A DNA stretch of 64,000 bases, from assembly GCA_034620365.1 (NCBI GenBank), contig JAQGEQ010000281.1, positions 434,001-498,000 of the forward strand, read 5' to 3'. This DNA comes from Pegea sp. RAD2-039 (Eukaryota > Chordata > Thaliacea > Salpida > Salpidae). The translations under genes and the position numbers were made by a program. The notes below the pieces were generated by a model that was not told the DNA's origin, made no database searches, and worked only from the letters and a program-made list of their open reading frames with translations. Positions 8,691 to 58,375 of this stretch are shown here, piece after piece; within the stretch, counting starts at the first letter, position 1, and the number at the start of each line of letters is the position of its first letter.

Positions 8691-9186
8691 TGTCAAAACA
8701 AGTAAATATCTTCAAACAATAAACCGAAAGTTAAATAAACCAAATAACGTTTGATTTATCTCACCTGTTGACACCAAGTCTTGTTAGTTAGATATCAGCA
8801 AGTGAACTGACAATAAAAGAGTCCTTCTTCACTGATTAGAATCAACAAATTCGTTTATGCTCTACTTTAATCAGTTTTTAATTTTAAATAATTAGCAAGT
8901 CTTTATAGTAGTTATAAGAGAGAACCAATGTGGAATATTCCTAAATCAGTTCAATGAATATAAAATTTTGAAGTTGACTTAACTACTTGTCGTTGTAGAA
9001 AGTGAAAGATTAGAGATAGTTATGGTATTCAAAAGTATTTTACGAGATGGTTTACAGAACTGAAGATTTAAAAGATAAACAAACCAACGTGATTACTGGC
9101 TCGCAATATTTGTAAATTGTAATATTTTAAAGGTACCTTTCTACAGAAAAGAAAATTTTGCAAAATAAATAAATAAAATAAAGTGA

Positions 9187-9240
9187 AAATATTTCGTTGC
9201 ACTTCTCTTTGGACTTGTAGTAAAATCTGGAGTCCTTTGT
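9187..9240 (+). repeat. Degraded right half of a hairpin unit
   Basis: The segment TTGCACTTCTCTTTGGACT then TGTAGTAAAATCTGGAGTCC resembles the right half of the units at 48896-50930. The small stem is here GGACT with AGTCC instead of GACTTG with CAAGTC. The long left hairpin is absent. A near-identical copy lies at about 14337-14390 in duplication unit 2. Confidence 0.4.
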
Positions 9241-12194
9241 TTCACTTTGTTTGATTTCTTTAATGCTTCCTTTGATCAAACTTTCAAGATTCCTCATTCA
9301 TAAAACTTTCTTCATCAATATAAGAGCAACATCGTTAACTTTTTGGTTAAACTCCTATCTTATGGAACTCACCTCTTTATGATTATTATTTAAAGTCCAT
9401 CTCCAGTTATCTTGAAGAAGATTGGAACTATGCATCATTTTGTTTTAATCCAACGGCTGAATTTTTATTTTGTCTTCTATCAGACATGAATCTCCTGTAA
9501 AGTAATCAAAATAAGTTTAAAAAACGAATCCCTTAGAAAAGATTCTTTCTTATTGAAAATAACTTTCTTGGAATAAAAGTCATTTTTTATATCTTAGAGA
9601 TTAGCGTCATCTTTTTGGAAGTCTCTAATTATAACTGAAAACTTTAGGATTTCGACATTTATAGAGTTTTACTTTTATGAAAAAATGACTTATTTTTCCA
9701 ATCTATTTACAAATTTTTATCAGTTTAAACTTTTGAATATCTTTATGATTCTCATAATAAAGGCAATCCTTTTTCAGCCTTATACTTTATTGTTTTTTTT
9801 TTATCTAAAAAGAATCGTCACCATTAAAAGGTAAAACATCTATGTTCTATCTAAAATTTGTTCACTTTTTTGCTCTGCCATATAATTACAAACATTTTAA
9901 AATATTTTTGCTTACTTGTTATCTTAACAACATATCTTTGGAAACATTAAAATTTCAAACCATTACTTGTAGCAAGTCAGAAAATAGACAAAATTCAATA
10001 GGTTTCTATTAGCTTGATGTTTAGTCATAAATTGTTTTATTTCATACAAAATCATTTGTGACAAAGATTATTTGGTTTAATCTAATGGCAGATTATAATC
10101 AGTTGGATAATAAAAGTTGATTATTGAAAAAAATCTAATAAAATATAAAATTGATTTAAAATTGATTTTTAAACTTTATTTTAATTCCATATCAGTTCTT
10201 TCTCAAGTTATAACATAAAGGCAACTGCAAGTTTTGGTTCCATATTTAAATACATTTATCATATTTCTAATTAAGAAATTCTTTTCTTTAAACATAAAAT
10301 TGATAGCAAGTCAGAATATAAGCCAAAACTTATTTCAAAATAAAACAATTTTAGAATTCCCACAAAAAGTATTTGTAGAAATTGTCATTTTCCTTTTTAA
10401 ATTTAGTTTAAAATATAAAACCAAGAAGAAAAAATTACCAACCTTTATATGCTTATTGTTTCAAACAGACAGTATGGATGTGACTTCATAAAACTGATGC
10501 CAAATAAAAAAAAGCCACATTGATGATTCTAGTTGTCTAACCAATAAGTTGAAATTATGATTTTTAATCATCTTCTCACATAAGAGCTACAATTAAATTG
10601 GATCTTTACTGAAGCCTGTGGAGAATACAAAGAATAGATTAGAAAACATAAAAACCAACTAAACCAATCTAAAAGTAAACTGTGTTTAAATATTTTTATG
10701 ATTCATAAGACCATAGATTCTTGACTGCAAACATTCAACTAACGTTTAATTAATTAAGTTATTGGAAAATTGTAACAAACATCAATCTGTGTTAAAGGTG
10801 GAAGATGAAGCAATCTTCTGTTGATTCTATTAATTATAAATTAAGAAGTATAAAAATTATTATCATCCAGTTCTTTAATGGTTAACATATTAATTATATA
10901 TTATTAGCAGAACCTCTCATGGAATGTTGTTGTTACAACACAATTAACCTGAAAACAAATTTATTATGGATAGATGATAACTTTCTATAATAAATACCAA
11001 AATTTGAGTTTTACTACAACATCTTACTTTTAGAAAATAAATAAAGTTTGATTAAAACATTAATTTTATAATATCTAAATTTTTTGTAACCTAGTTTCTG
11101 TAAAAAGCAAAATTTTTAAATATATAAAACTTTAAATTTATACTTTTTATTGTATTAAGTTACAACTTAAATATTTTCATTTTAAATCAATTGCTTTCAA
11201 CACTTGTTTAAAATGAATAAAATTACTAAAATAAATATTTTAAATATAAATTTAAATTAAAAAACTTCAAATTAAAAAGCAAAAATTATTAAAGTAAACA
11301 AAAATATAGTTCACAAAATATAGGCTGTCTTTGTAAACGTAAAATTTGTTGATTAAATTGAACAACTTTAGATAAATAATTACAAATAAAAAGAAACTTC
11401 TAAGTTTTGAAATTTGTTATTGAAATAAGCCATTATAGTTACTTTACGGTAATAGTATAAATGATAAAAATAATATAATGTTACAGTTTTTGTAAACCTA
11501 TAGGTTAAATTATAAACTTTATTTTGTATAAAAAATATTATATATTTATTTAAAGCTGAAAGTGGAAATTTATTATAAGACACAGAAATGTTAATTAATA
11601 CTACTAGTTCTAAAAGAATTTCTTCTAAACCTAAACACAAAAATTGGCAAACCTGTCCGTAATTTTTATGGTAACAAATTTAATAGAGTGTTAGTCGTAG
11701 AATTTGTTTCATTTTTTGATAATTGAAAATGTTAAGGTAAAAGTCAACATTAATTCTAGGGACACGCTGAACTAAAATCAAACCAATGAATACTTAAATG
11801 TTTTTCTAGGACTTAAGACCCTTATAATCCTATACATTGTTAAGCAAAATAAAATATCATGTTTACGAAGGACTAAAAACCAAATTGAAGGTAATTTTAC
11901 ACTGTAGAAAAGATTCGACAAATTCTTTTGGGTGTTTATTCAAATATGGTTGAATCGTATAAAGATCAAATTGATATTTAAAGCAAAAAAACAAATTTCT
12001 AAATTGTTTCAAAATAACTTATAATCCATTGTATCTATATCTGTATTCTAAAGAGCTTCTGTCATTGTGAAACGACTTCAATTACTATTATAAAACAACA
12101 ATAACAACTTTAAATACAAGTAGGAATATGTAAATAGCATTTACAATAATCAAGTAAATGAAATAAATTTAAAATCATGACTAAACGTGCAGAA

Positions 12195-13400: not shown

Positions 13401-16400
13401 TACATCGTTCCACTCGGCCCCTGGTAGGCTAAAAATAAATATGCAATGGTTGTGTTACCATCAAGAAACACAGTTTTAAACTAAAAATAGTGGCAGTATT
13501 AAAACAGTTCGATTTCAACTTAAATAGTACAATAGAGTATGACATGATAAGCCACATAACAGCCGATTCAAATTATTAATCATGATGTAATAGAAGATTT
13601 TTTTCGAGCATTTTGGTTTTAATAAAACCAAATTTTAAGATTTGAAAGCTTTTTTTTATAATTTAAACAGACATCATCCCAACTTTGATTAAAAAAATAA
13701 GTGATGATGTCACATGATATGATGACATGACAAAAATTGTCAACAATTTATGAGCAACATAGTGATGCCTCTTAGTACCATTTAAAAACTAAAATTTCTA
13801 ATAAAGGGGGTAGTAAGAGCAATCCTTATCTAAATAATGTCAAAACAAGTAAATATCTTCAAACAATAAATCAAAAATAAGATAAAACAAATAATGTTTG
13901 ATTTATCTCACCTGTTGACACCAAGTCTGGTTAGTTAGATATCAGCAACTGAACTGACAATGTAAAAGTCCTTCTTCACTGATTAGAATCAAAAAATTCG
14001 TTTATGCTCTTCTTTAATCAGTTTTTAATTTTAAATAATTAGCAAGTCTTTATAGTAGTTTTAAGAGAGAACTATTGTAGAATACTCATAAATCAGTTCA
14101 GTAAATATCAAGATTTGAAGTTGACTGAACTACTTATCGTTGTAGAAAGTGAAAGATTAGAGATAGTTAAGGTATTCAAAAGTATTTTACGAGATGGTTT
14201 ACAGAACTGAAGATTTAAATGATAAATAATCCAACGTGATTACTGGCTCGCAATAATTGTCAATTGTAATATTTTAAAGGTACCTTTCTACAGAAAAGAA
14301 AATTTTGCAAAATAAATAAATAAAATAAAGTGAAAATATTTCGATGCACTTCTCATTGGACTTGTAGTAAAATCTGGAGTCCTTTGTTTCATTGTTTGAT
14401 TTCTTTAATGCTTCCTTTGATCAAACTTTCAAGTTTCCTCATTCATAAAATTTTCTTCATCAATATAAGAGCAACATCGTTAACTTTTTGGGTAAACTCA
14501 TATCTAATGGAACTCACCTCTTTATGATTATTATTTAAAGTCCATTTCAAGTTATCTTGAAGAAGATTGGAATTATGCATCATTTTGTTTTAATCCAATG
14601 GCTGAATCTTCATTTCGTCTTCTCTCAGACATGAATCTGCTGTAAAGTAATCAAAATAAGTTTAAAAAATGAATCCTCTAGAAAAAATTTTTCTTATTGA
14701 AAATAACTTTCTTGGAATAAAAGCCATTTTTTATATCTTAGAGATTAGCGCCATCTTTTTGGAAGTCTCCACTTATAACTGAAAATATTAGGTTTTTGAC
14801 ATATATAGATTTCTACTTTTATGAAACAATGACTTATTTTTTTAATCAATTTACAAATTTTTTTCAGTTCAAACTTTTGAATATCTCTATGATTCTCATA
14901 ATAAAGTCAATCCTCTTATCAGCCTTATACTTTATTGTTTTTAGTTATCTAAAAAGAATCTTCACTAATAAAAGGTAAAAAATCTATGTTTTATCTATAA
15001 TTTGTTCACGTTTTTTACTATGCCATATAATTACACACTTCTTTCTTAGTTTTGCTTACTTGTAATCTCAACAACAAAACTTTGAAAACGTTGAATTTTG
15101 AAATTATTAGTTGTAGCAAGTTAGAAACTAGACAAAATTCAATATGTTTCACACTTTCTATTAGCTTGATGTTTAGTCATAAATTGTTTTATTTCATACA
15201 AAATCATTTGTGGCAAAGATTATTTGGTTTAATCTAATGGCAGATTATAATCAGTTGGATAATAAAAGTTGATTATTGAAAAAAATCTAATAAAATATAA
15301 AATTGATTTAAAATTGGGTTTTAAACTTTATTTTAATTCCATATCAGTTCTTTCTCAAGTTATAACACAAAAGCAACTGCAAGTTTTGGTTCCATATTTA
15401 AATACATTTATCATATTTCTAATTAAGAAATTCTTTTCTTTAAACATAAAATTGACAGCAAGTCAAAATATAAGCCAAAACTTATTTCAAAATAAACCAA
15501 TTTTAGAATTCCCACAAAAAGTATTTGTAGAAATTGTCATTTTTCTTTTTAAATTTAGTTTATAATATAAAACCAAGAAGAAAAAATTACCAACCTTTAT
15601 ATGCTTATTGTTTCAATCACACAGTATGGATGTGACTTCATAAAACCAATGCCAAATAAATAAAAAAAGCCACAATGATGATTCCAGTTGTCTAACCAAT
15701 AAGTTGAAATTATGATTTTTAATCATCTTCTCACATAAGAGCTACAATTAAATTGGATCTTTACTGAAGCCTGTGGAGAATACAAAATATAGATTAGAAA
15801 ACATAATAACCAACTAAACCAATCTAAAAGTAAAATTTGTTTAAATATTTTTTTGATTCATAAGACCATAGATTCTTGACTGCAAACATTCAACTAAGGT
15901 TTAGTTTATTAAGTTATTGGAAAATTGTAACAAACATCAATCTATGTTAAAGGTGGAAGATGAAGCAATCTTTTGTTGATTCTATTAATTATACATTAAG
16001 AAATATAAAAATTATTATCATACAGTTCTTTAATGGTTAACATATTAATAATATATTTTTAGCAGAACCTCTCATGGAATGTTTTTGTTACAACACAATT
16101 AACCTGAAAACAAATTTATTATGGATAGATGATAACTTTCCTTAATAAATACCAAAATTTGAGTTTTACTACAACATCTTACTTTTAGAAAATAACTAAA
16201 GTTTGATTAAAACATTAATTTTATAATATCTAAATTATTTGTAACCTAGTTTCTGTAAAAAGCAAAATTTGTAAAAATATAAAACTTTAAATTTATGCTT
16301 TTTATTGTATTAAGTTACAACTTAAATATTTTCATTTTAAATCAATTGCTTTCAACACTTATTTAAAATGAATAAAATTACTAAAATAAATATTTTAAAT

Positions 16401-25980: not shown

Positions 25981-26164
25981 CGATTCTGTAATAAATCATG
26001 ACTCAATTTTCAATTTAAAATTGATTTTATACAAAACTAATTGTAGACACTACCATGTAGATGGACTAAAGACAAGATACTTGTAGATTGTTTAACAGTA
26101 TTATCTTTCAGTTGAAGTTTTTTTCATATTTCGATAAATAGATTTTGTATTTTCAACAACTTCA

Positions 26165-26370
26165 AGCTTTGGTTTAAATAAAACAAGAATGTATGACTTT
26201 AATGTTTTTTTTATTCTAAGTAGTCACCATCATTCTATATTTGACTAAAATATTAAGCAGTAAGGTCAAGTGATATGATCACATGACAAAAATTACAACA
26301 TTTGAAGAACTAACAGGGTGATGCATAATAGCATAACTTGAAAAATTCAAATTTTAATTAAGGGGGTTGT
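26165..26370. repeat. Recurring block with GATCACATGACAAAAATT, copy 3
   Basis: Diverged copy of 8455-8690: TTTGGTTTAAATAAAACAAG, TTCTAAGTAGTCACCATC, GATATGATCACATGAC and GGGGGTTGTAAGAACC in the same order. Confidence 0.6.
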
Positions 26371-26449
26371 AAGAACCATCAAAGTTTATAAAATATTAAC
26401 AATATCAAAACTAAACAGTAGATTTATTCAAATTGCACTGAAAATAAAT

Positions 26450-29000
26450 AGATCTTAATTATTAACTCTTTAGATGTATATTTAAAGACCTGCTTCGATG
26501 ATTTGAGTTATATAAATCACCAAACATTTAAAGTAAACATTTCATCAAACTTTAAAATTGACATTTGTGTAACTTTAAACAAGGCTTGTATGCTTGATTA
26601 TTATTGATAGTGGTGTACTTGTTTCATTAACCCAATAACCAACTTTTATATTTGTATAGATGCTTTTGAAAATTATGTTACTTGCTATAACAGTAGAAAA
26701 AGAACATAGTTGGCGAGTTAATTTTCCCAATTTTTACATTAGTTTTTTTGTCCAATCTTTAAGTTGGTTCAGAGGTTAGTTAATTTTCAACTAACGAATC
26801 AACTTACTTTTTATTTGCACTCCTCTGCAAACTTGTAGTAGATCTGTAAGTCTTGCGCTTCGTTCAAATTTTTCTTATTTGTTTGCTGATTTGTTTGAAC
26901 CCAATCGAAATACAAGTTGAAGATATCTTTTTCTGTAAATCCTGTGTATGAAAAACTAGTTTACAATCCAGGCGAGTTGAGAAATTAGAGCTTACTATGT
27001 AAATTACGATTAAAATTACATCTTTCGAGCTAAAATTGAATTTGTAACATGCTATTTTTTAGTCTGAAATATATAATTTTAATCAACTTGCTTCTTTATT
27101 ATTTTTTTCAAAGTTAGTTTCCAAGGTATTACTTGAAAAAAGATTGAAACTATACATCCTGGATATTTATATCTTTTTCTTCAGTTTCCAATTTAAGTTT
27201 TATTGTTTGCTTCTTCTTCTTTGAGACTAGAAAAATATTATATTTTAAAAATGCAAACTGAAGCTTATAAAATCTTTTATATTTAAACAGCTATTGTGAT
27301 TACAAAAAGAAAATATTTTTGTCTGTTTTCAAATATTTCAATATTTTGTTTGGGTTTAGGTAGTTTTTTCTTTTCTTGCCACGTTAATTCTAATAAATTA
27401 ACTTATATTTCTGAAAATATTAGTAAATTTTAATAATCTATGAAATGTTATTACACAATATGCTAGCTTAATATTTTGTTTTATTTTTTATTTATCTGTT
27501 GTATATTCCACCTTTATTCCCCATTTTATTATTCTGAGTAAGTTATTGCTCATTTCAAATTTTGCTATATATATTATTGCAGAGTTCCAAATGTGTTTTA
27601 TTTTGTTCTTATGACAAATTCTAATATATATATTGATTCCACTTAGTAAAGCATGGTATAATAATACTGGATGCGTTGTTATACCCTGGTATTATCAAGT
27701 ATGTCTTAATAGACTGTAAATTCAATTAATTGGTAATAAAAATACAAATAAAAATGTGTAAAATGTTTGTAAAAACGGATTCAGTATTATCTTGCCTATA
27801 TCAACAATTTTATATACTAATAAATTGTGATCATAATTTTGTTTTTTAATGTCTTATTTTAGAAAAAGAAAGTATAAGTCAAATGATAATAAATTGGTTA
27901 TATACAATCAGAATTTTCTTATTCTTTGGATTTTGTTTAAAATTGACTTATTATCAATAAAACATCTTGTTAAGTTTATACATATATGGGTAACTTTAGA
28001 AAGCTAGAGCAACCATTTACATTTTATAAAGAACAGATTCAAACTTGAGAGTTGAAATTACTTTAAAACTTAGTTGTTCTAAGTAATAATCACAAGGGGT
28101 AAGTTAAAATAAGAATTAGAAAAAGTATCTAACCGTGTTGAATATTGAAGAATGAATTTCTTTTCTTTCCAAGTTAATGAATTTGAAATATTGGTATAAG
28201 GGACTTCATCAGATGATTTCTAATGAGTGTTATCTGCTTCAATACCTTTAGTTCTTATTACATTACTTTCTGAAAAATAACTTCTTTATATTAGTAAAAG
28301 TTAATCATTTGAGTTTAAAATAAATATAAGATAAATATTAATTATAAATACTCTAATATTTCTATAAAAGGATAAGTATTGACTAGTGACATCATTTAAA
28401 GTTGATATGAAAAAACTTGTTTTAATTATCTTTTAGCTTCATAGATTGTAATAAAGATCCATAGTAAAGGATATAAAAAAGTTCTTTTAAGAAAATGCCA
28501 ACAAATCTTATTTAATATAAATGTTTAATGATTTTTATACTATTAAATATTCAATTTTGAGCTAAAATAAAATTTTATAATATAAAACAAAATAATATTG
28601 AATTTAATAGAAATACAAGAAAAATAATTAGAAATTCAGATTTAAGAAACAGATAAATTAAAAAAACTAAATATGTAGGAATACTACAAAAACAAAATAA
28701 ATAAAAATTTTCAAAAATATTTAAAACTATAAAATTAAAAGCAGACAATTTTTACAAATAAACACATTAGTTAATTCACAATGAAAATTTATATAAAAAA
28801 GCAAGTTACCATTATTTACTTAAAAACAATTAAAAATACTTTTTTTTTTGTATTTTATTCATTGCTACAGATAAACTATACTTTTTGAAAAAGTTAAAAA
28901 TTTTTAGTTATACATTTTTTCAGTCTATTATCAAAAAAAACTTATATGTAAGATTGAAAATATAAACAGAATATAAATATATAAAATGTTCTTAAATTAA
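26450..29000 (+). repeat. Direct duplication with about 50540-52500
   Basis: Shared landmarks in order: ACTCTTTAGATGTAT, a GATTTGAGTTATATAAATCACC segment (positions ~26500-26522), a hairpin unit, and GACTTCATCAGA with TGAGTGTTATC near 28205 (51650 in the other copy). Between these the match is weak and the DNA is very AT-rich. No gene is supported. Confidence 0.55.
26761..26860 (+). repeat. Hairpin unit, solitary copy
   Basis: AAGTTGGTTC...GTTAGTT pairs with AACTAACGAATCAACTT around a short AT loop (stem about 17 bp with a 3-4 nt bulge). It is followed by TTTGCACTCCTCTGC, ACTTGTAGTAGATCTGTAAG and TCTTGCGCTT, as in the array at 48896-50930. Confidence 0.65.
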
Positions 29001-32038: not shown

Positions 32039-32039
32039 T

Positions 32040-33066
32040 TTTCAGTCTAACCTTAGTTTTCACCTATTAGTCTCTTGGCGAATATACAACTCTCTTTTAT
32101 AGCTGTATCCGGAGACAGATGGGTAATTACAGAAGAATGGTTTGCAAGAGGGTCTGATTTCAGCCGCTTGTAGATCAAATTTTATAGATTATAAATAATT
32201 AGAGCGAGACAGGAGGTATTGTACACCGTATCTATGGAAGACAGTTACTAATCACTGTATTTCAATTGGCACAAAAAAAAGCTAAAAAATGCTAGTAACA
32301 AAAGATGTGGTTGAACTCAATAAACAAATTAGCCAATTGTCAATGACAAATTTATGGGACTTGGTTCAATTACAAGATTTTCTAAGACCTTTGGGTGGTT
32401 TTTATTTTGATGAATAAAAATCTATTAAGAATCAAACTTCTTTTATTAACGCTCATTCTTTTAATTGTATTCAAATTATGTGAAAACAAACGTTTCAACA
32501 GCAAAGATTGTGAAATAACAAACGTTTGTTAACATGATAAAACAAGCAAAATTTGATTTAAGAATTATTTTAAATATTAATTGAAGATTAATTATTAACT
32601 TTTTATTTATGAGGAAAACAAAACTAGTTTTTCATAATTCATTTAATTTATTCAAAAGTTCAAACAGTTGATTCTAAAAACCTGTAAAATTCATAAACAA
32701 GTGGTAACAGAAATTCATCTAATAATGATTAAATCTGCTTTCTACTTGAAATATAAATTTGGGGTTTTTCGAAAATACAAGAAACAAATTAGTTTGAGAA
32801 GAAATCAATTTCTCAAGTAAATGTCTACATGTTTTACAAGAAAAAAAACTAAAAATTATTCGACAATTTAATATGAATTATGATTTAAGACATCAAGAAA
32901 TTAAAGAGAAAATGGCCCATCAGTAAGTATCACATTCCATATGTAAAATTGAATAATCAAGAAGTTCAGGAGCTTTTAAATCTAACGTTGAATAAGAAGA
33001 TCAGAAATTTCCTCCAAATAAGGAGCTTGTATAACTCTTGTAAATGTTCTGAAATCCACAAACTAA
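32040..33066. repeat. 3' flank shared with 20840-21904
   Basis: Direct repeat of 20840-21904. With the gene at 33067 and its upstream DNA it forms a duplicated segment of about 3.9 kb. Its left edge, near 32039, is the breakpoint with the truncated gene. Confidence 0.7.
32059..32417 (+). pseudogene. Decayed coding relic opposite the coiled-coil gene, copy 2
   Basis: Better-kept copy of 20867-21226. Segment 1 (32059-32173) follows CTAACCTTAG and includes SGDRWVITEEWFARGSDF. Segment 2 (32203-32295) includes SETGGIVHRIYGRQLLITVF then QLAQKKAKK. Segment 3 (32289-32417) is a 42-codon frame starting MLVTKDVVELNKQISQ and ending LGGFYFDE. Segments 2 and 3 overlap in different frames at a run of A, as if one base had been lost. 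An AATAAA lies at the stop codon of segment 3. The protein is not recognised. Confidence 0.45.
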
Positions 33067-34713: not shown

Positions 34714-34775
34714 TTTCGATTTTAAAATATTATTTAAATTATAAATGCCACTAGAACAAGTTTGTGATATTGCAA
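34714..34775 (-). promoter_or_regulatory. Conserved block just upstream of the coiled-coil start codon
   Basis: Third copy of the leader (see 3002-3064), again ending TTTTAAAATCGAAA before ATGG. The possible acceptor TTTGCAG reads TTTGCAA here. Confidence 0.45.
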
Positions 34776-36545
34776 ATAAAACTAAAACGATTTGGAATTT
34801 TGTAAAAATACAAAAACATTGTTTTCATGATTTAAAAAGAATAAGCAGTTTACTGAATGTAGAATATTAAGTAAAATATACTTAGATTATTTCCAGAGTA
34901 AATTTACTTATAGTTTCTAAATACTTATGTGATTTGATTTAAAACATTAATATAGATTAAATATTTTTAGCTTTTTTCAACACATGTTAAAGAAAAAATA
35001 AATAAAAGTAGATTAGTATAATTAGTATGAAGTATCGAATAGTCTATTCTAGACTATTTATACTTTCTATAAACCTTAGAATATTTAGTTGAAATTAATT
35101 GAATCTATATTAGTAATTAAAATAATTCCTAAAAACGAAGGTATATTGATAAAAATCACAAAATAAATGATAAGATCTACAAACCTTAAACTAAAACTTA
35201 AACAGTATTAAAACGCATATCAGCTTGTCAGTAACATGTAATTACAACTGCACAACTTATTTCTATAACTATATAAGCAGCTTTATGAAATGTATAGTTT
35301 GGCTGATTGAAAATGTTCTTTTCAATGGCAAAAATTAAGTTATCTACATAATATTACTAACTTTGCTTTTTAAAATTTTAAAAACGAATGCTAGAGAATC
35401 TTAATGATTTTTTCGCACAGTAATTTTTCCTTGCAAACTATTTAAATATTAAAATTTCAGCAAAAGTTACAATCATAGTTATAAAATATAAACTATATAA
35501 CTTATTTACATAATTTTGTATCAAATTAGTCATACAATATACAACAATTATTTCTAGAAACGAAAAACAAAAGAGCTACTATTAAGGCTTTAGCTAAACA
35601 AATCCTAACTACTTTTCTTAAAATTCTTTAACTTTTAACAGTTATTATATAATTTAGATGACAATGATTATCAGCATAAGAAGAACGTGAAAAAAACTTC
35701 TTTCAGAAAAGCACTGAAATAATAAAAACAATTTAACAAAAACTTCTAGTAAATTAAACAGAAATTATTTGGTTTCTTAGTTGTTGCTGTTATTCTGATT
35801 TGAATAAAGTAACAAAATCTAGATGATTTATGTTTATAAAAGTAAATTACATCATATATAAATCCATTTACATGAAATAAGTAATAAAAATTATGAAATA
35901 TAGAAAATTAATAGTTTCATTTTATTTTCTTGTATGTACAACTTCTTACACATTAATATTTAATTTTCAATAGTTTTAGATCATTCACAGTAGATATATA
36001 TGTCTTTAACATTCCTGAAGCTTATGTACTTTAGAGAATATCTTCAAACTGTTTGCAACTTGAAACAGAATAAAATTTTAACTAGTGAAAACATCAGAAA
36101 TTTTCCTAATAAACTTCTATTGAAAATAGAAAATTTCATTTTTCTAATGAACATTTTATTTCATTTTTTGATTGACGTTAAAGTATTTATTTATTTCTTA
36201 AACTTGCCATAAACTCAGCAGTTTTTATAGTAAATACAAAATAATTATCATAAGTAAACAAATAATAAATAGGTTTCAAGTTTGACTATTTAAAATTAAT
36301 ATAAAAAGGATAAGAACAATAATAATAGCTCTTATATTAAAACAGGTTTCATGCATTACATAATATTAAAATAAATACTAAGTTACAGACAATAATATTG
36401 ATTTATTGTAAACATTGAAGAAAACTATGTTATCAATCACAAAAGGATATTTTATTTTCACATTTATTGTAATAAATAAATTAATAAATAAATAAAATTT
36501 TGTTTAATAATGAATGATTTTCAGTTTTAAATCAAATCATTTTAA
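34776..36545. repeat. Upstream flank shared with 23275-24440
   Basis: Direct repeat of the flank upstream of the gene at 21905, up to about 35960. The remaining DNA to 36545 is AT-rich; a possible LINE tail trace (TTTATTGTAATAAATAAAT) is at about 36464-36500. No gene is supported. Confidence 0.6.
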
Positions 36546-39907: not shown

Positions 39908-40652
39908 ATTATTAAAACTAAACGTTTTCAATTTATAATCAATAAGCAGTAAGTTTGATTGTTGCATCATGTACGTTTCATTCATGAATACTTTTACGAA
40001 GTTTAACTGAGAAACAAGAAGCACATATGTGCTAGAGAAAATTAGTGCTGTGAATACTTTTGCCACTATATTTTATTTCTTAGTCATTACAGTTGTGCTT
40101 ATGGCAATAGTTTATTTTGTTTGTTTCAATATTTTGTATAATTAGAGCACTATTAAAAATAAAGTTTATTTTTATTTAAATTTTTCTTCAGAAGTTTCTG
40201 AGTTAATTTTTTATTTGCTGCTGTTGAGCTTAGTGAGAATTTTAGCGGCAGGTAACATAAATTGCAGTTTTGATTAAAATAACTAACCAACTGTTAACAC
40301 TGGTGTTTTTTTCTAAAATTTTCTTAAATTAATAATTTATTTGCTATGAAAGTGACTTGAAAATGTTTATTATTTTCATATGAAACAGATAAGGATCGAT
40401 TTTCAAATAAGTAATTTGTCTTGAAATAATTGACTTCTGAAAAATTATTTATAAAGTTGAATAAATATTAAAATTTATATTTAAGATCTTTGTTTGAGTA
40501 TATAATAATTAAAATCTAATTTTATTTGAAAAATTAATCTTAGTTTCAAAATTCTTTTAAACTTTCATTGAGAAATATTTATACCGTTTTTGCAGAGTAA
40601 AGCTTCTAATATATTAATCTTTTAGAATCAAGACTCTGATTAAAGCAAGAAA
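39908..40652. other. AT-rich stretch with no recognised gene
   Basis: No coding sequence. It does not carry the leader block seen before the other coiled-coil genes, so the pseudogene that follows has a different 5' flank. Confidence 0.5.
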
Positions 40653-42076
40653 ATGGAAAAACAAGAAAAAGAAACACAATCTCACTCAGCATGGATAGAA
40701 TCTACAGTTGAAAATATCAAGTATCACCTTACTAAGAATGCAGAAATTTGGAATCTTTGCCAAATTGATCCTGAAATTTCGAAAAAATGGCAAGAGGAGT
40801 TTTTAAAAGGTATCGAGGAGCAGTGTCTACAACGTTTTCTGAAAAGCAATTTTTACAATATTTCATTAAATGCAACACTTGAGAAAAAACAAAAAGATGT
40901 ACGGAAAGATCCTTTTTATTTTAAAGAAGGTTCTACAGCTTTAAAATGTAGAAAGTTTGATGAAAGAAAAGATGATGCCCAACATTGTATCAAGAAGATG
41001 AAGCCTACACGAAGACTAAGTAAGGAAACGGCTGAAGAAGTTAAAAGTGCGCAAAGAACTATTTGTAAAAAGAAAAGTGAAAATGTTGAAGAAGGTAGAA
41101 CTGAAAATTGAATGCCAAAAAGGAATGGAAGAGTTTAAAAAGTTGAAACTTTTCGAAATAGCGCTATGTGAAGAACTCGGATGCATCCCAACTAAGCAAA
41201 ATACTGAAAATTACGCAACTAAAGAGAACATTCTGAAAGTCAGTAAGGCTGTAGAAGATATATAGTCTTTGAAAGCATCGATTAAGGGTAGTGGAAAAGT
41301 TTAAACCTAAGTTGGCGGAAATAGTGGATGAATTAAAACTCAACTTAAGTGATGATTCAATTATTAAGAAAGTACTTGAGTCAGATCAACAAATGTTGAA
41401 ACTGGATCTGGTTCAGATCTTACCATCTGAGTACGTAAGATGAAAATAGTTTTGTCAGATATTAAAACAGGTATGGTCAATGAAATAAAAACTCTATTTC
41501 AATTTTTTAATAGCGAGGAAGACAGTTTATATAGGAGAAGGTTCAAGGAAAATAAAGCCCTATGGCGACATAAGAATAACGAAAGAAAATGTAATTTTCA
41601 ATTGTTTGGACGTTTAGCTAAAATCCCTATTGAAAATATAAAAATATACCATCAATATTTGTTAAGAAAAAAAAAACAATTTTAATATAGAAATAGCCTG
41701 CTGTAAACATGCTATAAACTTTTATCGAAAGTCGTGCTTTAAAAAAGAAAAACAATTTCCTTCTGCAAAAAACTATAAAGATCTGGATAAGTATAAAAAA
41801 GAACTGAAAGAGTCAATAAAGCTGTTTACATCTCACAAGGAAATGTTTTGTAAGACTTCCTCGATGATTGCATCTTTCAAAAATTTGAAGGAAATTACCA
41901 AGCATAAAAATGATTGTTTTCAAATAGAAATAAAGAAAACTATAACAAATATAACTGGCTTATATGATAAAATTGTAAAACTGAGCAAGATATATGAAAA
42001 AAAGTTTTCTGAAAGCTTTTCCATCGAAGGTGTTCCATTCAATGAGTTTTATAACGAACAATGGTCTTATTTTTAA
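40653..42076 (+). pseudogene. Coiled-coil family pseudogene
   Basis: Recognisable from HSAWIEST and NAEIWNLC at the N-terminus to SIEGVPFNEFYNEQW before the final stop at 42074. It is broken several times. The first frame ends at 41111. Family sequence resumes in another frame (EELGC, then NILKVSKAVEDI) and meets a stop at 41263. A small deletion near 41281 shifts the frame through SIIKKVLES-type sequence. A further frame holds LSDIKTGMVNEIKTLFQFF from 41440, and a run of A near 41670 shifts it again. It is more diverged than the other copies, with insertions near residues 85-125 and around 41530. It is probably the oldest duplicate in the window. Confidence 0.85.
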
Positions 42077-46389: not shown

Positions 46390-48292
46390 TTTCTTACTTG
46401 ATAACAGCGACCAGCTTGTGATGGAACCAAAAAATAAATCTGAGTTGCTAAACAATTAATTTAATACCGTTTTTATAACCGACAATGGCAATACTCCTTC
46501 TCTTTCCTACACCGACATTGTTACAAATATCTCTGAGATAGTAGATCTTGACATAACGATCGACACGGTATCTAAGGCTATTTCTTCTTGAAAATCATCA
46601 GTTTCCAACACCCCAGATAAGTTCTCTGCTCTGTTTTTAAGAAAAACTACTTCCTTTTTATCACTTTTCTTTAACATCACTCTAAAGCGACGAAGAGTGT
46701 AACAAAATTTGGGAAGAAAGCTATTATTACTCCAATTAATAAAATGGGTCCAAGAAACACTGCACTTAACTACAGATCATTTTCGTTGACTTTGTTTTTT
46801 TGCAGAAATAAAGAACATAACATTCACAATCATATGACCAGTCAATTGATGGAGCACCATCTAATACCTGATGTCCAGCATGGCCTTGTGAAACAGAGAT
46901 CTTCCCTGACTCAACATCTCACTTTTCTTAATGAGCTTGCAGCCCATTATGAAAGTAATACTCCTTGTGACATCATATAATTCAATATTGCTAAAGCATT
47001 TGATTCTATCCCACACAACAGGCTCATTACTGTGTTAGAAAGATTTAAAATCAACAGCTTTATCTTACATTGGATTGAAAACTACTTATAAGGTAGAACC
47101 CAACAAACTCGTGATGAAAGATCTTAATATACTCCTAGTCAAATCACCAATGGTGTTCCTCAGGGTTCTGTTTTGGGTCCCCTTCTCTTTTAAATCTTCT
47201 TTGAAGACCCCATCAGAAGAGTAGTAGCAGTAGATGATGTCAGAGTGTTTACCTCTGCAGATGATTGCAAGCTATTATATCAGATATTCTCTTATAATCC
47301 ATCAAAACTTCAAACTGCACTACACACTGTAGAAATCTGGTCTACGAATTGGTAGCTCAGAATCCAGCCCAGAAAGTCTGAACTTATAACTTCCTCCCAT
47401 AAACAAGCTGCAAATTTCTGCTACCAATACTCCATCAATGGATTTATTATTAAGCAAACATCTTCGGTCCTAGTCATTACTCTATCATCTGACTTTAAAT
47501 GAGAAAGTTATGTTTTCAAAATCTTTGGAAAGTAAATCAAACTTGTCTTCCTTATCATAAAGACCTTTAATTCTACGGATCCATGCTTTTCTCTCAATGT
47601 TTTCAAATTGTACGTACGTCCAATTCGTGAATATAATGTTAGTGCATAGATGTCATACCAAATTAGTGATATCAAAAAAAAGTCGCACTTAATTAGGCCA
47701 TATTTACGGGATTGGTAAGTAGTAGACTTAGAATTAATTACGATAATTATGAGCATCGTCGTAGTTTCTTAGATTTAGATATATTTTTAGATACTCCGAT
47801 TCATTAAACACAACTTAGTTTTTGTTTTTAAAATGATTCACAATTTATTTTTTCTTTCAGCTTTTTCTTTCCATTAGTCTTTCCATCAAGTTATATCAAC
47901 TCAGGCAACACACATTACATCTTAATAAGCCTGTACATTAAGTATCAGTATATAAGTAAGCAGTATCACCTGTACATCTTTCTTATACAGCACAGTTAGT
48001 ACTCGGGACCAGCTGCCATCATACATTGCCATGTCATAATCACTCGTGTTGTTCAAGCAGAAGTTGAACCGTTATAATATTGCCAATATTGTCATTTCTA
48101 AATTCAGATTATTTCCTTTCTTGTTTTAACTATCTCGGTAAATGTTCACTGTTCTATGCTTTGGAGACTATTAAAATGTCATGTTACATATTTTCTCTCT
48201 ATTTCTAACTTGTCAGGTATTATCTGTGAGAATGTGTGTTAGCGGGAGGTGCTTTCTTCAGGTATCCTCCTTTGTATTTATTGAAATAATTA
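46390..48292 (+). mobile_element. LINE (CR1/L2-like), longest copy, 5'-truncated
   Basis: Plus-strand element of about 1.9 kb. It begins inside the region before the RT fingers, runs through the RT domain and ends in the shared 3' region (GCTCGTGTT-like, GAGAATGTGTGTTAGCGGGA, GGTATCCTCC) with a short TTTATTGAAATAATTAA tail. It gives the sense orientation of the family: all other LINE pieces in the window match parts of it. The 5' end, including any ORF1 and endonuclease, is absent. Confidence 0.85.
46440..47960 (+). pseudogene. LINE reverse transcriptase, decayed
   Basis: RT motifs appear in the expected order across several frames: NYRSFSLT (from ~46768), a QHGLVKQRSS stretch (~46880), AKAFDSIPH (~46990), GVPQGSVLGPLLF (from 47152) and the catalytic ADD at 47257-47265. 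The PQG and ADD motifs share a frame but a TAA lies between them at 47194. Other stops (for example at 46978 and 47090) and shifts follow, so the enzyme is dead. The thumb and C-terminal parts match the open frames at 18212 and 56620. The RT is of the CR1/L2/Jockey type, judged from the motif pattern. Confidence 0.8.
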
Positions 48293-48895
48293 AGCTTTTT
48301 TATAGTATTACAAATACTACCAGAGGTATATAACCAATAAGTTTATTTTGTTTAATATTTTTTTTTAATATTCATTCGGCAAACTTTATCGATAAAATGC
48401 TCAAATTCAGAAATTATTAATAGAAAACGAATTTGCCAAAGTTAGTAACATAAAAGAAAACTTTCATGATCTATTACAGTTTTATTATAAATTTGAAACA
48501 ATTGGGGAAACAGACAAGTTGGTGTGATAAAACGTCGAATTGAAAAAGTTTCAATTCAATTGTAGATCCGTGCAAGAATCCAGTGAATTATTAGACTCTT
48601 TTCGATTTCTTTACATTCAGACTTTAAAAGATTGAGAAAATTGAACTTGAAGATTCCTTTAAGTTGTTTTAGTAGTGATAAGAACACATATGTAATTGGC
48701 GACCTGCAATAAATGTATTACAAAATCAGATAATGAAAAACAATTAAACCAGCCAAAATAAATGAGAGATCACTTAAACCTAAATAAAAAAGGGATCTTC
48801 TTATCTCAATCTGAACGAAGATTTTAGATGATATCGTTTCTTTTAAAATCTTCAATTACTTGGCAGAATCAGGCCAGCCCCTTTGACAAGCCTGG
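48293..48895. other. AT-rich stretch before the hairpin array
   Basis: No gene. From about 48690 it contains spacer sequence related to the array (GGCGACCTGCAATAAATG, like GGCGACCTACACGG near 49257). Confidence 0.4.
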
Positions 48896-48944
48896 AAGCA
48901 GATTAATAAGTAAGTTAATTTTTAACTTACTTACGAATCCACTT
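48896..48944 (+). repeat. Hairpin 1 of the array
   Basis: Arms AAGCAGATTAATAAGTAAG and CTTACTTACGAATCCACTT, with the loop in a TTAATTTTTAA stretch. The outer part has mismatches and the inner ~10 bp is perfect. Confidence 0.6.
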
Positions 48945-49081
48945 ACACTTCAGTTGCACTACTCTTTAGAAAACCCGGATTCTTGCGCCTAGTTTCCGAA
49001 ACTGATTTTTCTGCTTGTATTTTTTACTAACCTTCAATCATTCAGAAAAGATCGAATTAGTCAAAACATTGAAGCATCTGA

Positions 49082-49131
49082 AAGTTGGTTCGGAAGTAAG
49101 TTAAATAAAGACTTACTTACGAATCAACTTA
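49082..49131 (+). repeat. Hairpin 2 of the array
   Basis: Arms AAGTTGGTTCGGAAGTAAGT and ACTTACTTACGAATCAACTT, 18 of 20 positions paired, with a ~10-nt loop. Confidence 0.75.
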
Positions 49132-49430
49132 CATTTTATTTGAACTCCTCTTTAGACTTGTAGTAGATCTGCAAGTCTTGCGCTTATTTCCAAATTTTTC
49201 TTGTTCATTGTTTCAATAACCAAGTGACCAATTTTTATAAAATCGATTGATGTGTGGCGACCTACACGGTAAGTGAAATTTAGAAAAGTAAAACAGAAAG
49301 TAAATGAAAGATAACTTGAAGTCGTTTTTACATCAATTTTTTGTATTTATTGATTGAAGTGTCAATGAAACCATCTTCTTAACAAACCTCCAATCATTCA
49401 GAAGATATCTAATCAGACTTTGTCGAATCT

Positions 49431-49483
49431 GTAAGTAGATTCAGAAGTAGGTTAATTTTTAACTTACTTACGAATCAACTTAC
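49431..49483 (+). repeat. Hairpin 3 of the array
   Basis: Arms begin GTAAGTAGATTCAGAAG and end CGAATCAACTTAC, so the stem extends to about 25 positions with a few mismatches. Confidence 0.7.
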
Positions 49484-49624
49484 TCTCTATTTGCACTACT
49501 CTTCGAACTTGTAATAAGACAGCAAGGTTTTCGCTTAGTTCCAAATTTTTTATGTCTGTATGTTTTTGACAAACCTTCTATCACTGAGACGAGATCGAGC
49601 TAGAGTAAAATTGGGCGAAGCTGA

Positions 49625-49674
49625 AAGTTAATTTACAAATAAGTTAATTTAAAACTTACTTGCAAACTAACTTA
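49625..49674 (+). repeat. Hairpin 4 of the array
   Basis: Arms AAGTTAATTTACAAATAAGT and ACTTACTTGCAAACTAACTT. Several positions differ from hairpin 2 on both arms while staying paired. Confidence 0.7.
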
Positions 49675-50079
49675 CTCTCTATTTGAACTACTCTTTGGAC
49701 TTGTAGTAAAACAGCAAGGTTTTTGCTTAGTTTCAGTTTTTGTTTATTTCTTGTTTGTTCAAAAATGGAAGATCACAACTTCAACTACAAACATTTTCAG
49801 AAACCTTCTCCATCAAGTGGCTGAAAATAAATATTACTTAGTTCTCAGTGATTTGTTCAAACACTTTCGAAATACATGTTTCATGACTTCTTCTGCAGCA
49901 AAATCTCCTGTAAAAAAACAAGTTCACGACCACTGCAAGTTGGGAAATAAATTCTTACTATGTAACCATTTACCTCTGTGTGATAGCTGAAATTGATTTT
50001 GCAGCGACATCTTCTGTTTTTGACAAACCTTCTATCACTGAGAAGATATCCAATTAGACTAAACTGTGGTAAAGCTGAA

Positions 50080-50129
50080 AGTTGGTTCAAAGGTAAGTTA
50101 TTTTTCAACTTACTTACGAATCAACTTAC
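50080..50129 (+). repeat. Hairpin 5 of the array
   Basis: Arms AAGTTGGTTCAAAGGTAAGT and ACTTACTTACGAATCAACTT around a TATTTTTCA loop region. Confidence 0.7.
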
Positions 50130-50310
50130 ATTTAATTTGAACTCCTCCATCTAGCTCACAACCACTGCAAGTTGGCTTATCAAAACTTACCATGTAAATA
50201 TTTACTGCTGTTTGTTAGTTGAAATTGAATTTGCAGCGACATATTCTGTTTTTGACAAACCTTCAATCATTCAGAAGAGATCGAATTAGAGTAAAATTGG
50301 GCGAGGCTGA

Positions 50311-50360
50311 AAGTTAATTTACAAATAAGTTAATTTTAAACTTACTTGCAAACTAACTTA
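50311..50360 (+). repeat. Hairpin 6 of the array
   Basis: Almost the same as hairpin 4, including its flanks, so units 4 and 6 are recent duplicates. Confidence 0.7.
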
Positions 50361-50820
50361 CTCTCTATTTGCACTACTCTTTAGACTTGTAGTAAAACAG
50401 CAAGGGTTTTGCTTAGTTTCAGTTTGTGTTTATTACTTCTTTCTTCGAAAATGGAAGATCACAACTTCAACTCCAAACATCTTCAGAAACCTTCTCCATC
50501 AAGTGGCTGAAAATAAAAAGATCTTAGTTCTCAACTCTTTAGATGTATTTTTAAAGATCTGCTTTGGTAATTTGTATTTTAAATCATTAAAGAGTTAAAG
50601 TTTCAAGAGCTTCGGTGATTTGAGTTATATAAATCACCAAACAGTTAAAGTAAACATATCGAACCTGGAAATCGACATTTGTGTAAATCTAATGTAAACA
50701 CATCTTCTTTTCACGTCTACTCATCATCATTGAATGATATTCGTCAAAAAATAGTTTTTTATAAAACCTTTAATCACCCGGAGGAGACTTTGTAGTATCT
50801 CTGGACTTTGTTGAATCTGT

Positions 50821-50870
50821 AAGTTGGATCAGAGGCTAGTTAATTTTCTACTAGCCTACGAATCAACTTA
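50821..50870 (+). repeat. Hairpin 7 of the array
   Basis: Arms AAGTTGGATCAGAGGCTAGT and ACTAGCCTACGAATCAACTT. The inner stem GGCTAGT/ACTAGCC replaces AGTAAGT/ACTTACT of the other units on both arms. Confidence 0.75.
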
Positions 50871-50930
50871 CTTTTTATTTGCACTCCTCTGCAGACTTAT
50901 AGGAGATCTGCAAGTCTTGCGCTTAGTTCC

Positions 50931-53466
50931 TGTTATTATCCCTAAAACAAATCTATAAAAACCAAATCTTCCTAAATGTTTTTGTCAACATAAACAACTT
51001 TATATAAATTGTAAATCAACATATATATATATATTGTAAATATATAAATTATAATTAGGCTATTATTTCAAAATATTTATAAAAAGGAAAATATGGTGAT
51101 CAATTTTGAAAGTTATCAATCTTTTTATAATTCAAAATCCAATTTTTTCAAATGAAAGTCGATTAATTTTAATTTACTTGTAAATAATCTAAATAAAATT
51201 TCATATTTATTTAATAACCTAGCATCAGAAGAAAATACTCCTATACTTCTATAGAGGTGTTTTCATATTTTTCTTTGTCATATTAATCATAATTATTTAA
51301 AATATAACTTTTGAAATTATTTTAAATTTTCAATTATCCAAAAAGTTGAATATTTTCTTTTTATTTATATCTATCTCTAAAATGTATCTACTATATATCC
51401 CCAATTATTTTTTATTTTAATTAACTAATGTCCATTACTATTTCTTTTTAATTGAAACCAAAGCTTTTCGAATTATTATATTATTAAAAACAAATTTATT
51501 AAAACCAAATCTTTCTAAATATATAAATGTATAGTTAGTTTTAGAAGGCTAATTATCTAAAAGAAAATTATCAAAACCATCTACCTGTGTTGGAAAGTGA
51601 AAGTGATCTTCTTTTGCCTGAATAATGACCTTGAAATATTGGTGTACAGGACTTCATCAGAGATTTGCTACTGAGTGTTATCCGATTCAAGATCTTTAGT
51701 TTTTCCTGCATTACTTCCTGAAAAATAATTCTTTGATTAGAAAAGATTGGTTATTTGAGTCCAAACTAAATAATTAATTAGATATAAATTCTTTAATAAT
51801 AGCTAATTATTTCCTTAAAACAATTTTTTATTGTAATTTTTGAACTATTGATAAAAAAAATTGATATGACATTAAGAAATTAGTTTTAATAATCTTTTAG
51901 CTGCATAGATAAGTTCTATACATAAAATGTCATAAAATTTTAACTAATATTTATATTTAATGATATTTTAAATATTTAACTATTTTTATAATAGTAAGCT
52001 ATTATTAAACTAAAAATCAGTTTGAATAGTTTATTATTTATTATTTGAATCCCATAGATTATATTGGATATAATAGATATATCAAAATTAACAAAATAAA
52101 TTCAGATTAATGAAACCAGCAATTTCAAAAACTGGTTTTAAATATAAAAAATAGTTTAAAAAATTATATAAATAAAAAATACTTAAAACTGCAAGAATAT
52201 AGAAAAAGAATTTGTGATTAACTAAGTATGGTTACACACATAAAAAAATCTGATGACTACTTTTTCCACTATTTTTATTATATAAACTAAAAAAAGTCAT
52301 TTTTGTTTATTTAACCTATTGGTGTAAATTATCCCATAACTTGTCATACTTTATGCATAAGTTAAATACTTTTAGTTATAAATTTTTAATCTAATTGAAA
52401 GAAAAAATAATTGTAAAATTCAAAATGAAACCAAACTAGAATACATTTTTCTTAACAAATACTTTATAGGTTACACTGAGAAAATAAATAGTTAATAGCT
52501 ATAAATAGATTTAATTGAAAACTTAATCACTTTCATTTTTTTGATTTAATAAATTCATGATAAACAAGTAGTTTGCAGGACAAACAAGTTTTTGGAGAAC
52601 AGTTAATAGTGTGAAACAAAATATAAAAACAATTTACCCGAAAATATGTTTCTTAAATCCAACAGTAACTACCTGTACAAGGACAAACTAGAAAAAGAAA
52701 GAAAGTGCCAAGTTCTTGTTATATATCGACCTAAACACGTCATCAGGGACATCCCCTGTTCAATTACGATTTGTCATCACTGCTGTTGTTGACCAAGTAG
52801 ACCAGTTTTAATTATTAAATACTGTATAATACAACAAACATTATATAAATTAAATATAATAATAAATTAAAATCTCTCCTTGAGGTTACCCTATTCTTGT
52901 AAATGCTCAAATTAATAGGGTTTAACTTTTAAAAGTTCAAGGTTGGCTCACTATCATTATGGATTAAAAGCATTTTAGTCAGCTAAAAAAAAATAAAATG
53001 TTAACTTAGTAACATATTAAAATATAATAAATAATAAGATAACAATTTACATTTATTTATTTTTCAACCTTGAAACCTTTATCAAGAACCTAGAAGTCAT
53101 TATGAACAATTGTTTCATCAAAGTACTTTTGGATGTTAAACTATTTACAAAAAATACTTTTTGAAATTAAAAAATCTAAACACTGATATTAACTATCTAA
53201 CATTTAGAAAATTATTAATAAATGGTTTATTTAAAATTAAAACATTTAAGTAGCTAAATTTTAAAAACGTTTTAATTATTAAATACCGGTGTTAGAAAAG
53301 ACAAACTATTGGTAAAAGTTTAAATGTCTACTTTTATAATCTGTAAAATATTGTTTAAACTAAATGAATGATCTAAACACTTATTGCATATTTTATCACT
53401 TTTTCATGCTGTTTTCTTTAAGTACTAAAATAAAAGATAAATTTTTGATTTTAGATTATTGTATTT
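50931..53466. other. AT-rich stretch, partly duplicate of 27400-29000
   Basis: No gene. It contains a TA-rich microsatellite at about 51021-51035 and the GACTTCATCAGAGATT landmark near 51650 shared with 28205. The part after about 52500 shows nothing recognisable. Confidence 0.5.
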
Positions 53467-56335: not shown

Positions 56336-57215
56336 GTTTATTTATTTCAGAGAGCACCTCTTGCTAACACACATTCTTAAGAATAACATCTATTTAGTCA
56401 AAAATATAGAGAGTAAAAGATGTAACACATTGCATTTCAGTAGTCCTCAAAGCATATAACAGTGAACAATTACATAGAATGTTAATGATATAAAAAAAAG
56501 GAAACAAAAATCACAGTTTAGAAATGACAATGTTGACAATATTATTACGGTTCAACTTCTGCTTGAACAACACGAGCGACTTCGACATGGCAATGTCTGA
56601 TGGCAGCTGGTTCCATGTACTAATTGTGCGATCGGGGAAAAATTTGCTCTGGCCAATGTACCAGGCTTATTATAATAGGCTTATTAAGATGTAAAATGTG
56701 TCGTCTGAGTTGATATAACTTGAGGAAAGGACTAATGGAAAGGAAATCATCAATTAAATTATGATTAATTTTGAAAATAAGAATTAAGTCGTATTTAATC
56801 CGTCGAATTTCCAAAGTATCTAGATTGAAGAAAATGAGACGTTGTTTATAACTATCATATTTAATATTAAGTTTCCTGCATATCAATCTCGTAAATGTGG
56901 CCTGAACGGATTTGATTGTTTTGATATCACTAACTTGATATGGCATCCATGCACTGACATTGTATTCAAGAATTGGACGTACGTACAATTTGAAAAGATT
57001 GATAAAAAAGCATGGGTTCTTAGAATTAAAGGTCTTTATATTAAGGAAGACAAAGTTAATTGGTTTTCCAAAGATTTTTGAAACATAATTGCGCCATTTA
57101 AAGTCAGATGATAAAGTAATGCCAAGGTCTAGGACCGAAGATACTCGTTGAATAATAAATCTATAGATGGAGTATTGGTTCAAAGAATTTACAACTGGTT
57201 TACGAGAAAAAGTTA
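56336..57215 (-). mobile_element. LINE copy, 5'-truncated
   Basis: Minus-strand LINE 3' portion of ~0.9 kb. Its tail (AAATAAATAAAC on the minus strand) is joined to GGTGCTCTCTGAAATAAAT; about 25 bp of the usual terminus (the AGGCACCCTCC part) is missing. The RT C-terminus lies at 56620-57183. The 5' truncation point abuts a TA repeat. Confidence 0.8.
56620..57183 (-). pseudogene. LINE reverse transcriptase C-terminal fragment
   Basis: 187-codon open stretch, the best-kept piece of the RT C-terminal region. Landmarks: SSVLDLGITLSSDFKWRNYV, the YVRPILEYNVSAWMPY motif, FTRLICRKLN, and YKQRLIFFNLDTLEIRRIKY. This is the pattern of CR1/L2-type LINE enzymes after the catalytic palm. The catalytic residues themselves are absent because the copy is 5'-truncated. 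Its stop leads into the LINE 3' UTR. Confidence 0.8.
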
Positions 57216-58375
57216 TAAGTTTATATATAAATATATATATATATAAGGTGATAGTTAGCTTATAGGTTAATAATACTTAACAAACAATATTAGCACTGCA
57301 TGTTTTATAAAAGCTTGAATGTTAAAAACAGTTTTATAAACTTCAATTTAGGTATAAGTAGATAACATTTTCGTTTTACTAAATTCAATATAAAGTTTCA
57401 ATAAAACTGTAATTTCTAATATGCAATTTTGGAAAGTGTCGTAGATCGAAAAATTATAGTAATCTTAGTTGTTATCGTTTGTTTTTATTTGCAGCAACAA
57501 CAAACGTTGATGAGATTACAATATTTATAATAAACTGTTATTTTTCATTGTATTCTGTGGTTGTGTTTGAACTCCACAGTAGAAAGTGTTGAGCAATGTA
57601 CAATAAACCGAACTCAGATATATAACAGATTTGAACTAGCTTCAAGTGCAATAATTTCTTAATCAATTATAAAATGAAACTGATACTACTTAAAAATTAT
57701 CTCAAAATGATCTGTTGACCTGGCAGTTGCTATTTAAGCTATGTTGTTTGTATAAAAAGCAAAAAACAAGATTTTAAACAAAGATTTATTTTGGATTTTG
57801 ATGAAAACTTGAATTTACGTTTACTTTAAAAATTTCATTTTAATTATAAACAAATAATGTATTATTTTAGTTTTTAAGGCTGTATTTGTACCAACTATGA
57901 AAAACTTGACAGTTATAAAATTTTAATAACTTTTTTAAAAGTAGCATGCGAAGAAAAACTCATAATAATTTTTTTAATAAGTTTTTTTATTAAATCGTGA
58001 ACTAAAATCAATTGCGATAGTATTTTTCTCATCCCATAGATAAGCATGCTATAAATATATAAATGAATATAAATATTCCCTACCTATTGTTTTTTAAAGC
58101 ATCTGGAATGTATTTCTTCTGGAAATCTAACAGCTTTTTGTAGCAAAGAGACAAGTACACTTAAAACAGAAGAAACTGTTGCAGTATAAAAGATAATGTA
58201 TGGCAGATGAGTATTCCCCGCTTTGAATAGTAGCTTATACAAGTCACAAAAAGCTATAAAATAACCTTCTTTTGATGTCTGATTAAATCTTTACTTTCTA
58301 AGACAATCTCAACAAAGCGCTGATTAGTGCATGCTACTTTCCGTTATCCACAGAAGGTAATTATTGATAAATAAC
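57216..58375. other. AT-rich stretch with a TA microsatellite
   Basis: A short TA repeat at about 57222-57244; otherwise AT-rich with no supported gene. Confidence 0.5.

Follow-up and report, generated by a model that had tools for sequence, protein, structure and literature searches.

A single-locus tandem hairpin array in a likely tunicate, with arm covariation that need not mean function

Compensatory changes in the two arms of a hairpin are frequently regarded as the strongest evidence that an RNA structure is functional. The stretch of 64,000 nucleotides analysed here (the window; contig C50, positions 434001 to 498000, within a 105.7-Mb assembly) contains a cluster of hairpin-forming units in which both arms change together, and the question raised by this locus is whether the pairing has been kept by selection or by some other process. 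An earlier note, made from the window alone, suggested selection on RNA or DNA structure and cautioned that copying between the arms could have the same effect. With approximately 40 tandem hairpins in known order, the locus described below is well suited to telling selection and template switching apart.

Eight hairpin units were identified in the window (GC content of 22-32% in 2-kb steps), seven at 48888-50931 and one at 26753-26870, and all of those placed by the earlier note at 48896-50930 (seven) and 26761 (one) are present. Each consists of a hairpin of approximately 54-58 nt (about 23-25 pairs at best, with a loop of 3-9 nt) and a linker, and seven of the eight also carry a 3' box able to form a small stem. 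The inner stem quoted for unit 2, AGTAAGT/ACTTACT, and the different one quoted for unit 7 (Table 1) were found to be exact, and units 2 and 4 differ by a G-C to A-T and a C-G to T-A pair replacement.

These units represent only a small part of the family, and the earlier observation was understated in that a much larger array, invisible from the window alone, lies outside it. Tandem Repeats Finder (TRF) gave a period of 1539 bp, 9.0 copies and 94% matches for this array. Its complete repeats carry three hairpin variants (X, A and B) plus spacers, the monomer being a hairpin block of approximately 165 bp and a spacer, in several diverged variants. The A, B and X consensuses are 74.5-77.3% identical to one another, whereas identity within a variant is 0.958 for A, 0.953 for B and 0.947 for X. 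Both properties of a higher-order tandem repeat were thus found, namely head-to-tail copies of a multi-monomer unit and array copies that are more alike than the variants inside the unit. The longest stop-to-stop frame in the consensus repeat, in a scan of the unspliced sequence, was 89 codons. In total the family comprises 41 units, 39 with both arms and two partial, which span no more than 115 kb of contig C50: eight in the window, one at 416 kb, and 30 full (11 A, 11 B and 8 X) plus two partial units in or beside the large array. The 416-kb copy is identical to U8 and lies in an inverted duplication. The seven-unit array of the window is related to the 1539-bp repeat but scrambled, and two of its blocks are collinear with that repeat. 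The second small stem described in the earlier note holds for part of the family: 9-10 of 10 pairs were formed in nine of 38 units and 7-8 in 19, and the remaining ten (unit 1, unit 5 and the eight X variants) formed only 0-3.

When unit 2 was compared with the genome, 33 matches were obtained, all at 416-531 kb of C50 (28 of 28 candidates scored). Words from the unit were also searched throughout the assembly, allowing at most 3 mismatches, with reversed words as controls. All matches to two arm words (35/35 and 21/21; reversed controls 1 and 1), to a 3'-box word (24/24; control 0) and to a spacer word (10/10; control 0) were located at 425-531 kb of C50. For the B-variant arm word, 13 of 20 matches were on C50 and seven elsewhere, against two for the reversed control; by eye, some of these seven resemble ACTT-type repeats. 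At the depths searched, no hairpin unit was found outside this locus in the 105.7-Mb assembly, and to this depth such confinement argues against an element with scattered copies. A spread like that of a simple satellite or a MITE, which the earlier note had named as evidence against its own reading, was therefore found in part: the units are in tandem at a single locus, as in a satellite, and are not scattered as MITEs are.

Table 1. Positions of the hairpin units, related blocks and neighbouring features (window coordinates unless a contig or another stretch is named)
Feature	Position	Strand	Remarks
Unit U1	48888..48998	+	X-like; without small stem
Unit U2	49074..49192	+	A-like; most stable 58-nt fold of the window plus strand
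Unit U3	49425..49543	+	X-like in 5' half
Unit U4	49617..49735	+	B variant; stem weak
Unit U5	50071..50149	+	truncated after linker; 3' box gone
Unit U6	50303..50421	+	B variant; stem weak
Unit U7	50813..50931	+	inner stem GGCTAGT/ACTAGCC
Unit U8	26753..26870	+	hairpin (3' arm 4 nt short) and 3' box
3' box without hairpin	9151..9248	+	
3' box without hairpin	14298..14395	+	copy of the 9151-9248 box, inside the 93% direct duplication
Block collinear with 1539-bp repeat (spacer, U6, spacer)	50153..50608	+	92.6% identity, 457 columns
Block collinear with 1539-bp repeat (U4, spacer)	49561..49847	+	94.4%, 288 columns
Repeat-family spacer block upstream of U8	26438..26534	+	82.5% against repeat consensus
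Large tandem array	C50:515735-529643		
Gene-burst members	3002-3970, 21905-23275, 31307-32041, 33067-34824, 40644-42076; also L043, L048		
Inverted duplication	C50:414.1-422.8 kb and 454.3-463.0 kb (window 20305-29000)		
Direct duplication	8082-12000 and 13229-17154		
tRNA-Lys(TTT) genes	19676, 38520, 39142; L043 9238; L044 5812 and 9519		
1706-codon open frame	C50:532349-537466 (L042, L047)	-	
Non-LTR reverse transcriptase-like fragment	18212-18700		matches Pfam RVT_1 (E 2.5e-10)
Non-LTR reverse transcriptase-like fragment	56620-57276		scanned, no Pfam match
Non-LTR reverse transcriptase-like fragments	46675-46980; L047 540529-541359		named by resemblance alone
GAATAAAT-type simple repeat	L044 about 1927-4945		three kilobases; open in three frames

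Several other features were observed in the same region. Long single-frame genes that are alike form a burst of approximately eight copies or fragments within 70 kb, as judged by eye. Two members were scanned, one of which matched Pfam PF03999 MAP65/ASE1 (E 4.6e-12) while the other had no match; for the former, a search of 5.8 billion proteins at E 1e-3 gave one homolog (50% identity) among the scored candidates. One gene of this burst and U8 lie in a duplication in inverted orientation that extends over at least 8.7 kb at 96.3% identity, and the lone 3' boxes lie in one in direct orientation that covers at least 3.9 kb at 93.4%. Six tRNA-Lys(TTT) genes are present within approximately 50 kb; five have the same sequence, and the sixth shows one difference from them. 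The 1706-codon open frame, which consists mostly of 30-residue repeats (90-bp units), shares its strand with the large array and immediately precedes it. Fragments resembling non-LTR reverse transcriptases and a long simple repeat were also noted (Table 1). Elsewhere in the assembly, a mitochondrial Hsp70 (mortalin) frame on contig C6 points to a tunicate: among the best 120 of 7997 matches, its closest named relatives are tunicates (Clavelina 87%, Phallusia 86%, Ciona 83 and 87%), apart from the highest-scoring row, which carries the name of a bird (78%); an ENA protein without a name reaches 98%. In a tree of 21 rows the frame groups with unnamed proteins next to the ascidians. COX1 was not found in the assembly.

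The hairpins exceed chance expectation. Among 15,986 58-nt stretches of the plus strand of the 64-kb window, units 2, 7 and 3 were the top three in fold stability. Comparison of 11 hairpins with 200 shuffles each revealed that ten were never equalled, and that B1 was equalled by 8 of 200; the z-scores ranged from -8.7 to -2.0, and one A-variant hairpin reached -26.3 kcal/mol with z = -8.1. Folding of 38 units gave -16.2 to -26.1 kcal/mol for the non-B units and -6.2 to -11.4 kcal/mol for the B variant, to which 13 of 39 units belong, units 4 and 6 included. The A and X hairpins of the large array all still fold at -19 to -26 kcal/mol.

Covariation of the arms was investigated in an alignment of 38 units, from which the 416-kb copy and the two partial units of the large array had been left out. 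The gap in U8 was re-placed by hand for the pairing, tree-null, stem-change, arm-swap and G-T/A-C analyses, while the column-shuffle test and the folds and pairing counts of the 38 units were based on the unedited alignment. The tree null, a custom test, comprised 2000 simulations in which the tree was fixed and each column underwent as many changes as in the data; it and the change counts used 22 pairs, with columns 31-39 and pair 20/50 excluded. Mutual information between paired columns was 2.65 against 1.11 under the tree null (p = 0.003), and changes on both sides were seen in six pairs where 2.7 would be expected (p = 0.02). Extra pair types numbered 14 against 11.1 (p = 0.14). The percentage of pairing, 89% against 76% (p = 0.0005), is biased upward because the structure was derived from these very sequences. 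With shuffled columns the covariation score was reached in 0 of 500 cases, the six both-side pairs in 73 of 500 and the further pair types in 424 of 500. Own arms paired at 86.9%, against 82.0% for swapped arms (nine variants; permutation p = 0.0003, not corrected for the tree). Paired changes beyond phylogeny, which the earlier note had proposed, were thus recovered by the first two measures, with some others disagreeing, and the covariation of the arms is real but modest.

Selection on RNA or DNA structure, which the earlier note had read into these changes, did not find the same backing. Four tests show no sign that the structure is under selection as RNA, and this reading is not supported. 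In the young array, 21 of 164 sites were variable in the hairpins and 194 of 1541 over the whole repeat (eight complete repeats); by simple arithmetic, a constraint that halves the rate would predict approximately 10 variable hairpin sites. Nor were the stems clearly slower than other parts of the unit, with 23 young changes per 44 stem columns against 44 per 69 columns elsewhere, and 40 per 44 against 59 per 69 for deep changes. Of the young changes that started from a paired state, 12 of 17 broke it, as did 14 of 26 of the deep ones (difference p = 0.35), so that the young changes are mostly pair-breaking. A strand acting as RNA would be expected to leave more G-U than A-C intermediates. Watson-Crick pairs changed to G-T in 8 events and to A-C in 5 (p = 0.58; 35 cells against 35, pair 20/50 excluded); the excess of G-U is not significant and, since the two kinds of intermediate are equally common, no RNA strand is apparent. 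In addition, amplification in the large array brought the B variant, despite its weak stem, to 11 copies, the same number as the strong A variant. On this evidence, the covariation signal need not mean function, and the array represents a case of statistically supported compensatory changes without the other testable signs of constraint.

The explanation that we favour, with a probability of about one half, is that the locus is a single-locus higher-order tandem repeat whose arms were matched by template switching during replication and not by selection for a structured RNA. Growth would have occurred in nested steps, from monomer to three-monomer repeat to array, by unequal exchange and conversion between units, as is suggested by the nested order and by patches of A-type sequence seen by eye inside X units 3 and 4. 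Replication may sometimes have copied one arm from the other, and matched arm changes without constraint are the pattern expected from template switching in quasipalindromes. Template switching is a published cause of paired changes in inverted repeats (PMC8794818, PMC8604942). It can homogenise the arms of such repeats (PMC8604942) and follows patterns by which hairpin stems can be newly formed or repaired, although its part in the upkeep of short stems is described as less clear (PMC8794818). The earlier caution about copying between arms is accordingly the better-supported half of that interpretation. It counts against template switching that, among the per-branch double changes, none was seen that formed a clear jump of several pairs on a branch of short length; the branch to the B variant carries three double changes, but it is long.

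Several further observations were counted against this explanation. Columns 20/50 are unpaired in 37 of 38 rows (36 mismatched and one gapped); wide copying between arms would have erased this mismatch, while selection on a bulge would keep it. Across nine variants, conservation within the unit is highest in the 3' arm (0.911, compared with 0.834-0.857 for all other parts, among them the 5' arm at 0.841 and the linker at 0.834), as in a microRNA precursor, and the layout with three variants resembles microRNA arrays. The A and X folds have remained stable. Finally, the decay of the spacers is uneven. In near copies, whole blocks including spacers are 92.6-94.4% alike, in line with the favoured explanation, and around U8 the spacer pieces (73-86%) and the hairpin unit (78.5%) are about equally alike; beside U1 and U7, however, the spacer is partly unalignable while the unit still aligns, and elsewhere a spacer or 3' box persists without the hairpin.

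The main alternative, though a rather doubtful one, is a small-RNA cluster like the fish miR-430 array or a Drosophila hpRNA (hairpin siRNA) cluster, in which small RNAs would be processed from the stems of one long transcript containing the hairpins in tandem. A single-locus tandem repeat with three hairpin variants in each copy, as in the zebrafish miR-430 triplets (PMC10417697), is consistent with it, as are the covariation beyond the tree null, the stability of the A-variant hairpin and the conservation of the 3' arm above all other segments; tandem hpRNA copies with shifting copy number arising from one transcript are known from hp-CG4068 (PMC10317233). However, the stem has only approximately 23-25 bp with unpaired flanks and no lower stem, compared with approximately 35 bp in microRNA primaries (PMC8865264). 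Rfam searches at gathering scores, covering the window and six flanking stretches, returned only tRNAs above their cut-offs. With relaxed thresholds, nothing near its cut-off was detected in parts of both arrays (2.5 kb and 1.8 kb), the top score being 26.5 bits against 99 and none much above half. The two arm words had no off-locus match with up to 3 mismatches, so that these arms have no near-perfect unspliced target. The presumed seed region is variable, U7 and U8 being different, the stem is weak in 13 of 39 units, and the young array shows no constraint. It would be a bolder step, and appears unlikely, to regard the locus as a putative tunicate array of miR-430 design, with approximately ten 1.5-kb repeats, most with three variants, from which many short duplexes would be set free in the germ line or the early embryo. 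Such an array would have arisen separately from that of fishes, and it would lie next to a recent burst of PRC1/MAP65-like genes. Should small RNAs be made here, the sister group of vertebrates would have invented the array design of miR-430 on its own.

It is improbable that the array encodes a long noncoding RNA with repeated protein-binding hairpins, selected for structure and especially for the internal mismatch. Such an RNA would account for the covariation over the tree null and for columns 20/50, where even the single row that is not mismatched is unpaired by a gap. Its stems are, however, not clearly slower than other columns, the excess of G-U is not significant, and the weak B variant, amplified equally, makes up 11 of the 30 full units of the large array. 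Still less probable is an element acting at the level of DNA, a palindrome which extrudes a cruciform or binds a dimeric protein and thereby promotes local recombination and duplication. Duplications do abound at the locus (the inverted and direct ones described above, plus the two arrays), but weak-stem units amplify as well as strong ones. A mobile element of the MITE or SINE type clustered here by accident is hardly credible, in spite of the short unit, the inverted repeat and the lack of a long reading frame, given that no copies were found on other contigs at the depths searched, that there is no significant similarity to the local tRNA-Lys and that the palindrome sits inside a longer repeat. 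An origin of the unit from tRNA-Lys was rejected, with scores within those of shuffles (X, A and B reached by 267, 124 and 52 of 500, respectively).

The hairpin array represents a known kind of sequence at a new locus. Among the literature matches listed, no comparable tunicate hairpin array was found, which is no proof of absence. With fish miR-430 arrays (PMC10417697) it has in common a tandem repeat at one locus with several hairpin variants per unit, but it differs in the shorter stem, the absence of a lower stem, of an Rfam match and of a constant seed, and in young hairpins that are unconstrained. The Drosophila hpRNA clusters hp-CG4068 and hp-tHMG are likewise tandem hairpins at one locus with a young duplicated gene family nearby; the arms described there share sequence with the target genes (PMC10317233), whereas the arms here are approximately 23 bp long and two arm words have no near-perfect match off the locus. 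Like satellite-type higher-order repeats, the locus has diverged monomers within a longer homogenised tandem unit (1539 bp x 9, 94%); unlike abundant genome-wide satellites, it is restricted to a single gene-containing locus, where it occupies only approximately 14-16 kb and a relic of 2 kb. Like the quasipalindromes subject to template switching (PMC8794818, PMC8604942), its units are imperfect inverted repeats with arms that can change together without the need of selection; it differs in that the events diagnostic of such switching change several bases in a single step, and no clean case among the short branches was seen in this array.
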